A DNA stretch of 64,000 bases from Candidatus Accumulibacter regalis (lineage in GTDB: Bacteria > Pseudomonadota > Gammaproteobacteria > Burkholderiales > Rhodocyclaceae): assembly GCA_000585075.1 (NCBI GenBank), contig JEMY01000024.1, positions 1 through 64,000 on the forward strand. Direction: 5' to 3'. Below, one piece after another: positions 60,519 to 62,990 of the stretch. The position numbers were made by a program, and so were the translations under genes. Every line of letters starts with the position of its first letter. Position 1 is the stretch's first letter. A model generated the notes under the pieces. That model was not told the DNA's origin. It did no database searches and worked only from the letters and a program-made list of their open reading frames with translations.

Positions 60519-62990
60519 ATGAAGCCCGGACGGAATGATCCCTGTCCCTGCGGCAGTGGCAGGAAGTACAAGAACTGCTGCCTCGGCCAAGGTGCCGCCG
60601 AACCGGCCCAGCGTCACCAGCTCACCTTGCCGCCCGACGCGGTCGACGCGCGCCAGCTGGTGGCCATGTTCCAGGCAGGCCGCCATGCCGAACTGGAATC
60701 GTGGCTGCACCTTCTCGTGCGACAATCGCCGCAATCGGGATTTCTCTGGGGGCTCCTTGGTGCCACCCTGCAGGCGCAAGGCAAGGATGGCTTGCCCGCC
60801 CTGCAGCGCGCAACGACGCTCGCACCCGAAGATTTCGATGCCCAGACTGCGCTCGGGAGAGCTTTCATCGAACGCGGGCTTTTCGACGCGGCGGCCACCA
60901 GCTTCGAGCGCGCCGCGCTGATTCAGCCGGGGAACGCGGGCGCCCAGTTCGCGCTTGGCGATTCCTTGCGACTGTCAGGAAGGTTTGCCGAGGCGGAGGC
61001 CTGCCTGCGCGGAGTCCTGCGCAGCGCGCCGGATTCGGCCGAACTGCTGGTCTGTCTCGCGGATACGCTGGGCGAACTGGGGCGGTTGGACGAAGCTGAA
61101 GCCTTCTCTCGTCGGGCAGCACAGCGCGCGCCGGAATATCCTGCGGCCCACTTCTGCCTGGGCAACATCCTGTGCAAGAGCGGGCGGCTGGAAGAAGCTG
61201 GGAACTGTTTTGCAGCCGCGCTGCAGCGCGCTCCGGACTACGTCCCCGCCCTCGACAATCTTGGCAACGTGCTGCAGGAACTCGGGAGCCGGGTCAAGGC
61301 CGAGGAATGCTATCGTCGAGCCCTGCAATTGGCTCCTGGCTACGTGAATGCGTGCACCAATCTGGCACGACTTCTCGTCGACCAGACCCGTTTCGCCGAG
61401 GCGGAGCGCTGCTATCGGGATGCCCTGAAGGCGCAGCCGGCGAACGCCGAAATACTTGAACGGCTCGGCGGCGTCCTGGTGGAACTCGGACGCGCGAAGG
61501 AAGCCGAAAGCTGCTACCTTCAGGCACTCGATGCGCAACCTGATCGTGCCACGACGCGGCTGGCTCTGGCGACCGCCGCCCTGCCGGTAATCGTGCACAC
61601 CAGCGCAGAAGCTGCCGCCGTACCGAACGCTTTCGCTGCCGCACTCGCTACGCTTTCCGACTGGCTGCACGCCGACCCCGGTCGGCAGATACGTGCCGCC
61701 GACCTGGCCGGCGCGCAGCAACCGTTCTTCCTCGCCTACCGCGATGGCAATCACGTCGATCTGCTATCGCGCTACGGCGACCTGGTCGCTGAATGCCTGC
61801 CCCCGCGGGAGCGTGCACCGCGCCCGCATCGCGACAGAACCCGGCTGTTGGTGGTATCGCATCACGTGCGCCGGCATTCGGTATGGGATATCGTCCTGCG
61901 CGGCCTGTTGCTGCACCTGGATCGTACGCGTTTCGAGGTGCTCATCTATCACCTGGGCAATGCCGAGGACGAAGAAACGGCCTTTGCCCGCACGCAGGTC
62001 GATGGCTGGCGTGACCGGCACACGATTGGCGAGGCCAGCGGCTGGCTGGCCGCCGCTGGCCAAGACTGCCCGGACGTGATTTTCTACCCGGAAATCGGCA
62101 TGTCGTCGATCGCCTACTTCCTTGCCGCACATCGGCTCGCGCCGCTGCAGGTGGCCAGCTGGGGGCACCCGATCACCACCGGCCTGGCCAGCATCGATCT
62201 GTTTCTCTCCGGCGACCTGCTCGAGCCCGCGAATGCCGATGCCCACTACCGCGAGCGCTTGATCCGCTTGCCCGGCACCGGCTGCTGCACCGCTTCGCTG
62301 CCGATCGCTGCCGAGCCCATTCCGGAGGTGGAGGCCGCCCTGCACGGTCTGGATGGTCGCCGCTTCCTGATCGCCCAACGGAGCATCAAGCTCGACCCGG
62401 TCGACGATGATCTCTATGCGCAGATAGCCGTTGCAGCCGGATCGAGTGTCTTCATTCTGCTGCGCGATCCGGTTTGCCCCTGGGCGACCGACCAGGTCAT
62501 GGCGCGCCTCGAATCGGTGTTCCGCAAGCGCGGCATCGATCCGACGCGACACCTGCTCTTGATTCCCTGGCTCTCGCCCGGGAAGTTTCTTGCCTTGCTC
62601 GATCTCTGCGACGTCTTTCTCGACTGCCCGGCTTTTTCCGGATACACCACGGCCTGGCAGGCACTGCATCGCGGCCTGCCGATCGTCACCCGCGAAGGGC
62701 GCCACATGCGCCAGCGCCTTGCTTCCGGATTGCTGCGCAAGGCCGGCCTGGCCGACAACATCGCCTCGTCGACAGACGACTACATCCGCATTGCCACACG
62801 TCTGGCCGGGGAGTGCCGCGACGCAGGCCGCAGAACGGCGCTGCGCGCGGCGGTTCTCGCTGCCGCGCCAGCGGTGGACGATGACGTCAGTGTCGTCAGA
62901 TCATTTGAAAGCTGCCTGCTGGCTGAACTGGACGTCGCCCGCCGCGCCGAAGTCACGGGTTCCCGACACGCTTCAGACCGATCAACCTGA
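60519..62990 (+). CDS. SEC-C / TPR / GT41 (O-GlcNAc transferase-like) fusion protein
   Basis: 823 residues. Residues 3-22 are a SEC-C zinc motif ([18 protein letters not shown]), nearly identical to the SecA tail encoded 1.4 kb upstream. About eight or nine TPR repeats follow (about 70-350, for example [19 protein letters not shown] units). The GT41/SPINDLY catalytic region lies at about 440-790: [14 protein letters not shown], Lys624 in AQRSIKLDP (the UDP-phosphate lysine of OGT), and [19 protein letters not shown]. It probably glycosylates proteins in the cytosol. No signal peptide. Starts 24 bases after argJ. The substrate is unknown. Confidence 0.85.

Follow-up and report, generated by a model that had tools for sequence, protein, structure and literature searches.

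A SEC-C metal-binding motif on a TPR-containing GT41 glycosyltransferase of Candidatus Accumulibacter: a possible tether to SecB or the ribosome

Introduction

Why would a glycosyltransferase begin with the metal-binding motif that is found at the end of SecA? The question is raised by a contig of Candidatus Accumulibacter regalis, of which we analysed a stretch of 64,000 nucleotides (the window). The original prediction, made from these letters alone, described a GT41 enzyme with a SEC-C motif encoded one gene away from secA, and suggested that the motif recruits the enzyme to SecB or to ribosomes, so that exported or nascent proteins are glycosylated before or during Sec export. It also allowed that the motif might have been copied from secA or might be a generic zinc module.

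Its statement that the SecA motif binds SecB and the ribosome agrees with the portion of PMC6620043 available to us, where E. coli SecA needs its metal-binding domain to bind SecB, and the domain binds ribosomes near uL23. According to the same portion of that paper, which cites 1OZB as the complex of this domain with SecB, many SecB-contact residues of the SecA domain are conserved even in species without SecB. Near-identical metal-binding domains are carried by YecA and YchJ, and YecA has been linked to SecB by a preprint, both as given in the accessible part of PMC8076867. There is also a precedent for timing: in the part of PMC3983070 at hand, HMW1C, a GT41 enzyme, glycosylates an adhesin in the cytoplasm before its Sec export. 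We found no description of a pre-export glycosylation checkpoint in the literature searched, which was available to us in part.

Architecture of the protein

Profile matches and a predicted fold show that the gene at 60519-62990 encodes, as far as sequence and model can tell, a SEC-C motif, a linker, a TPR superhelix and a two-lobed GT41 domain, in that order (Table 1). The open reading frame starts with ATG, 24 bp 3' of the preceding gene. The SEC-C family PF02810 of Pfam matches residues 5-22 with 37.0 bits (E 3.1e-9, cut-off 20.4), over a CxC...CC/H pattern; TPR families score up to 110.6 bits; and PF13844 (Glyco_transf_41) scores 52.1 bits against a cut-off of 25, which places the protein in GT41. 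The count of about nine repeats is our own tally from the helix list of the model. In a profile search, this protein was the sole GT41 match in its own genome (an assembly of 4.63 Mb in 85 contigs), and its closest named relative, in Candidatus Propionivibrio aalborgensis, is 78% identical. A PHROGs search gave four weak matches, all to families of unknown function, and searches of the PDB with the whole protein were crowded by TPR matches.

Table 1. Features of the window, and SEC-C-bearing genes found elsewhere
Feature	Position	Strand	Basis or remark
secB, sole SecB match in the genome	44503..44922	-	PF02556, 191.4 bits
secA, from the first listed start codon	56296..59124	+	matches L103
SEC-C of the SecA C-terminal tail	59056..59109	+	motif search, codon comparison
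argJ, between secA and the GT41 gene	59256..60494	+	ORF; present in 28/28 genus genomes
SEC-C + TPR + GT41 protein, 823 aa	60519..62990	+	ORF list, Pfam, predicted fold
SEC-C metal-binding motif, residues 4-21	60528..60581	+	PF02810, 37.0 bits; invariance in 20 proteins
Linker, low predicted order, residues 22-43	60582..60647	+	pLDDT <50 at 25-40; sequence variable
About nine TPRs + connector helices, residues 44-385	60648..61673	+	Pfam, model
GT41 catalytic domain, residues 440-800	61836..62918	+	Pfam, alignments, model, fold search
H453-S454, aligned with SPINDLY H495-S496	61875..61880	+	H453 in 15/15, S454 in 14/15 homologues
K624, aligned with essential SPINDLY K665	62388..62390	+	15/15 homologues
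T710, aligned with SPINDLY T748 (phosphate contact)	62646..62648	+	15/15 homologues
Anaerobic sulfatase maturases with SEC-C	L083:8804-10075, L088:8771-10075, L091:8807-10081		Planctomycetota, Gemmatimonadota, Pseudomonadales
Eleven further SEC-C-TPR-GT41 genes	L219, L220, L221, L223, L229, L232, L233, L251, L253, L255, L258

An AlphaFold2 model built with 15 aligned homologues (mean pLDDT 88.2, pTM 0.77) has a TPR superhelix followed by the two Rossmann-like lobes of the GT41 fold; its SEC-C end is modelled with a modest pLDDT of 59-70. Foldseek ranks SPINDLY first for this model (E 1.6e-35), followed by human OGT, the Thermobaculum protein 5djs and XcOGT. The original prediction had pointed to a conserved lysine, Lys624, in a GT41 region behind the TPRs, and this is borne out by Pfam and by the alignment of K624 with SPINDLY K665 and with the Lys of human OGT.

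The catalytic lysine, the histidine and the phosphate-contact threonine are each present in all of the aligned homologues, and the catalytic apparatus, judged from these alignments, is largely conserved. In SPINDLY, loss of K665 or H495 abolishes activity, and mutants of S496, Y744 and T748 are strongly impaired, as stated in the available part of PMC9715652. The position of Y744 is F706 in the window protein, with Phe in 15/15 aligned homologues. The acid of the GHTTGMD stretch of human OGT (GTTTTCE in SPINDLY), which we do not treat as defining for GT41, is replaced by Q714; the 15 aligned rows have Q in 13, L in one and M in one. Because of F706 and Q714, donor recognition may differ. An inactive catalytic domain, which would have undone the original proposal, is not supported, since H453, S454, K624 and T710 are kept, though two active-site positions differ from those of SPINDLY.

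The SEC-C motif within the clade

The resemblance to the local SecA tail on which the original prediction was built is real, with 15 of 18 residues identical; the position it gave for the SecA motif, 59062-59121, was a few bases off (Table 1). The window SecA matches a locus (L103) that NCBIfam scores as a SecA fragment. At the DNA level only 38 of 54 bases match, and nine of the 15 codons for the same residue differ. Recent copying from the neighbouring secA is therefore unlikely, and we reject this alternative as a recent event.

How strictly is the motif kept? It is present in 20/20 N-terminally complete proteins that we compared; these had been picked for alignment from the start of the window protein or for a visible motif, and none failed the motif search or was dropped. 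In this set 13 of the 18 SEC-C positions are invariant, as are none of the 24 positions of the following linker and 110 of the 360 of the catalytic region. Besides the four cysteines, R5, N6, K16 and K18 are invariant, and position 15 is only R or K. In other words, basic residues are conserved beside the metal ligands, a likeness in general character to the SecA-like metal-binding domain. Counted without that choice of proteins, SEC-C is found in all 16 N-complete genus copies among loci L016-L032, and in all 15 N-complete ORFs of L046-L061, a gene set that overlaps the former. Over 3420 pairwise comparisons, the SEC-C codons show 1263 synonymous and 407 nonsynonymous differences (not site-normalised). 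The best PDB sequence matches of the motif are SecA tail peptides, including 1OZB, and YchJ. The presence of SEC-C in this clade does not look like chance, and the upkeep of basic non-ligand residues as well as metal ligands, seen in the sequences, would support a tether.

In one orthologue (genome G016, L028:7-3693) SEC-C is retained although some 70 residues that follow it are absent.

Distribution of SEC-C among GT41 proteins

The close subfamily of the window protein scores above 560 bits with a profile of the catalytic region, and the next best match, a truncated copy of the window gene aside, scores 250. Within the subfamily, SEC-C is found in Rhodocyclales and in one protein titled Betaproteobacteria (L060). 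It is lacking in members from Gallionella/Gallionellales, Methylococcales, Polaromonas, Magnetococcales and a LacPavin proteobacterium, and in a second Accumulibacter copy (L043, genome G002). In a tree of 36 rows, one clade (support 98/95) has SEC-C in each of its 19 N-complete rows, L060 just outside it has the motif too, and the label needs two changes; none of the ten N-complete ORFs from the neighbouring branches (L062-L074) has it. Identity to the window protein does not separate the two kinds: SEC-C-less members are mostly 42-53% identical (some 51-53%) and the more distant SEC-C-bearing ones 46-52%, so that the ranges overlap.

Several SEC-C-less members have layouts or surroundings of their own. 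Four Methylococcales ORFs of 3371-4110 aa (L065, L067, L068 and L070, of which two run off the locus end) consist of repeated TPR and GT41 units, the last unit being of the window protein's subfamily and without SEC-C. In Polaromonas (L071:7651-13806), the homologue is flanked on one side by an RTX-repeat protein and on the other by a TylF-type methyltransferase.

The combination is also found outside this subfamily. A truncated gene (L075) joins SEC-C and TPRs to a different, classical GT41 domain, and a search with it of 300 genomes of the order, with four candidates scored per genome, yielded eleven further SEC-C-TPR-GT41 genes among the matches fetched (Table 1). In an 84-row GT41 tree (30 rows with SEC-C and 54 lacking it, after removal of 27 rows with cut N-termini and with L075 left out), whose bootstrap is not fully settled, the label needs 11 changes, seven of them forced by well-supported branches, against a mean of 25 when it is shuffled. 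Frequencies depend on how the proteins were drawn, and the GT41 sampling is biased both ways, part of it having been drawn with a SEC-C-containing query: SEC-C is present in seven of 25 N-complete proteins retrieved with such a query, in none of the 18 ORFs with complete N-termini at the 30 loci that score best with PF13844 (a query without SEC-C), and in none of 11 distant relatives. A class-wide protein search of 369 genomes at E 1e-70 found nothing outside the window's own genome, and is weak because only two candidates per genome were scored.

From the 11 label changes and the absence from the 18 best-scoring ORFs, SEC-C on GT41 proteins appears to be an accessory found in a minority, with many gains or losses. 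The original prediction would have been refuted by homologues that mostly lack the motif, and this holds in part: the motif is absent from the neighbouring branches and from the best-scoring loci, and is kept throughout one clade and present on other branches. Because SEC-C is conserved in one clade and was repeatedly assembled in others, the idea of recruitment stands on a better footing.

The secA neighbourhood

In the window, secA, argJ and the GT41 gene follow one another on the forward strand, and secB lies on the other strand (Table 1), so that secA, secB and the GT41 gene are together in the window, as the original prediction had it; argJ, apaG and rpe are presumptive names, given from the look of the proteins. 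The arrangement of the GT41 gene one gene away from secA is not conserved in relatives. With at most 16 first-look candidates scored per genome, an orthologue (at least 50% identity) is present in 18 of the 28 genus genomes, and it is beside argJ in one of these 18, the window's own genome. In 16 others the two genes are on different contigs, and 2.27 Mb separate them in the single-contig genome G015. In a few drafts, G002, G011 and G023 among them, the upstream side is out of view because the gene is near a contig end.

Farther away, the GT41 gene also follows argJ at one Rhodocyclales locus (L059, 48% identical), the sole locus of L046-L075 beside which SecA and ArgJ were found, several of the others being short. 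Neither was found in about 10 kb upstream at eight clade loci (L047, L048, L050, L051, L052, L053, L055 and L058), and no SecA match was found in L219-L267, most of which span about 4 kb and six 15 kb. The surroundings of clade members vary. As far as draft contig ends allow, there is no conserved linkage of the kind expected of a Sec operon component. A functional link by way of the secA neighbourhood, to which the original prediction had appealed, is thus rejected, the arrangement being confined to the own genome within the genus and to one distant Rhodocyclales contig, and the neighbourhood looks like chance. Since the orthologue is patchy in the genus, the enzyme is not a core component of export. 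Beside the window gene, we recognised no exported substrate.

Other carriers of SEC-C

The genome itself holds five SEC-C matches. Two are in short frames (65 and 172 aa); the others are the GT41 protein, SecA and a UPF0149/YecA-like protein. The YecA-like protein has its motif at the C-terminus (contig C60:15596-15649, L001). Among the SEC-C family matches listed for 300 genomes, most look SecA-like by frame length, and SecA matches occur in 27 of the 47 loci of L079-L125, which were mostly retrieved with SEC-C-like peptides.

SEC-C is also carried by proteins without a known Sec role. Three anaerobic sulfatase maturases (Table 1) have a C-terminal SEC-C and match TIGR03942 with 434, 441 and 451 bits (cut-off 349.45); among nine fetched Pseudomonadota maturase loci above that cut-off, from 18 such matches listed, one has the motif. 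Four SEC-C-TPR proteins of 609-843 aa (L249, L252, L254 and L257) have no detected GT41 domain. The C-terminus of L252 is weakly GT9-like (21.8 bits, cut-off 22) and that of L249 gave no match. The C-termini of L254 and L257 look ATP-grasp-like by eye, with sub-threshold matches only.

What might the motif do?

We tentatively favour, at somewhat below an even chance, a cytoplasmic TPR-GT41 protein glycosyltransferase that SEC-C tethers to SecB and/or the ribosome and that acts before export. In such a scheme, (i) SEC-C would be a flexible tether, docking on the hubs used by the SecA metal-binding domain, namely SecB and/or the ribosome exit region; (ii) the groove of the TPRs would grip unfolded pre-secretory or nascent chains; and (iii) the GT41 domain would add a sugar to the gripped chain before export. 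That SEC-C recruits the enzyme to SecB or the ribosome is plausible on the sequence evidence, and the tagged enzyme and its tagged relatives together suggest that proteins leaving the cell may be glycosylated en route. Besides the upkeep of the motif and of the catalytic residues, the SEC-C-bearing sulfatase maturases and the pre-export action of HMW1C speak for the tether. Against the tether, SEC-C-less members are common, the orthologue is patchy, linkage to secA is not conserved, and the motif occurs on proteins that have no known role in Sec.

A wider form of the same idea, which we consider doubtful, is that SEC-C serves as an all-purpose address label that Betaproteobacteria repeatedly added to TPR glycosyltransferases, the enzymes docking on SecB or at the ribosome exit before export. 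It would span several GT41 branches and perhaps also the GT9-like and other C-terminal domains.

The serious rival is a generic metal-binding knuckle that has neither a Sec nor a ribosome partner and would stabilise, oligomerise or metal-regulate the protein; glycosylation of proteins would still proceed by way of the TPRs. The variety of other proteins that carry SEC-C, the many GT41 proteins that do without it and the unconserved secA linkage would all suit such a module; unlike an integral structural zinc site, however, the motif is attached by a linker that varies in sequence and is predicted to be poorly ordered, and its basic residues are as strictly kept as its metal ligands. We rate a bare metal module as somewhat unlikely; it and the adaptor considered next fit nearly as well as the tether does.

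That adaptor would bind some partner other than Sec, either an acceptor protein or an enzyme of a sugar cassette. The neighbours of six other SEC-C-GT41 genes, at which 10 adjoining proteins were scanned, bear on it: seven of the 10, spread over four loci, are enzymes of the sugar-type, methyl, hexapeptide or radical SAM kinds. They comprise a rhamnosyl O-methyltransferase/CmcI-like gene, a hexapeptide transferase and a methyltransferase in L262, a methyltransferase in L267, a GT2 in L266, and the enzymes beside the gene in L264. Such enzymes near four of the six sampled genes speak for the adaptor. Against it, L265 yielded a PPIC rotamase and L263 an autotransporter-domain protein, the window gene was not seen to share a neighbour with the six sampled loci, and the motif stays close to the SecA-like sequence. 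The sampled neighbours suit glycan or protein modification without pointing to Sec, and we think an adaptor of this kind distinctly improbable.

Two of these loci may be described further. In L264 (5334-10775), the SEC-C-TPR-GT41 gene has an M24 metallopeptidase, which looks like a methionine aminopeptidase, on one side and a radical SAM protein and a GT9 on the other. In L263 (4441-5532), the gene for the autotransporter-domain protein lies some 0.9 kb away from the SEC-C-TPR-GT41 gene, on the opposite strand, and its product is a possible exported substrate.

It is very improbable that the enzyme assembles a glycan or surface polysaccharide and carries its TPRs and SEC-C incidentally, modifying no protein: some related genes do lie in glycan-like cassettes, and in L062 a homologue is joined to a GT2, but TPR plus GT41 is the layout of the known protein glycosyltransferases OGT and SPINDLY, which are also the closest folds.

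The tethered glycosyltransferase suggests a testable route by which a soluble enzyme could single out exported proteins while they are still in the cytoplasm, and offers a possible role for SEC-C proteins outside SecA. If it is true, a portable tag of 20 residues that brings enzymes to SecB or the ribosome would be a useful tool of protein engineering.

Comparison with known systems

Among known enzymes, the plant protein O-fucosyltransferase SPINDLY (GT41; 7y4i, 8dtf, 8dti) is the top fold match, with the same TPRs, connector and two-lobed GT41 domain; the target-normalised TM-score is 0.76 for 8dti, but about 0.52 for the top full-length chains. Its active-site H, S, K and T align with H453, S454, K624 and T710, at an overall identity of about 22%, and the two differ at F706 (SPINDLY Y744) and Q714 (the SPINDLY acid). 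We know of no SEC-C in SPINDLY.

The Thermobaculum OGT-like protein 5djs, the best sequence match of the catalytic domain (128 bits), and XcOGT of Xanthomonas (2jlb) have target-normalised TM-scores of 0.77 and 0.72 with the model; the structures cover shorter chains, of 529 and 568 residues, and their matches showed no SEC-C. HMW1C/NGT, the UDP-glucose:protein N-glucosyltransferase, is also of GT41 and aligned over residues 518-777 of the window protein. Membership in that family is rejected, with 45.8 bits for NF049992 of NCBIfam against a cut-off of 1000, and no adhesin gene was recognised beside the window gene.

At its other end, the window protein has the same SEC-C motif as the SecA C-terminal metal-binding domain, YecA and YchJ, and the linker of low predicted order that sets it off is a further likeness to that domain. 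It differs from the local SecA in that the motif is N-terminal, joined to an enzyme and ends in CC, whereas the SecA motif ends in CH. Anaerobic sulfatase maturases modify their targets in the cytoplasm before export. The three with SEC-C (L083, L088 and L091) differ from the window protein in their radical SAM chemistry and in having the motif at the C-terminus; like it, they are protein-modifying enzymes, or in its case a predicted one, with a SEC-C motif at one end.
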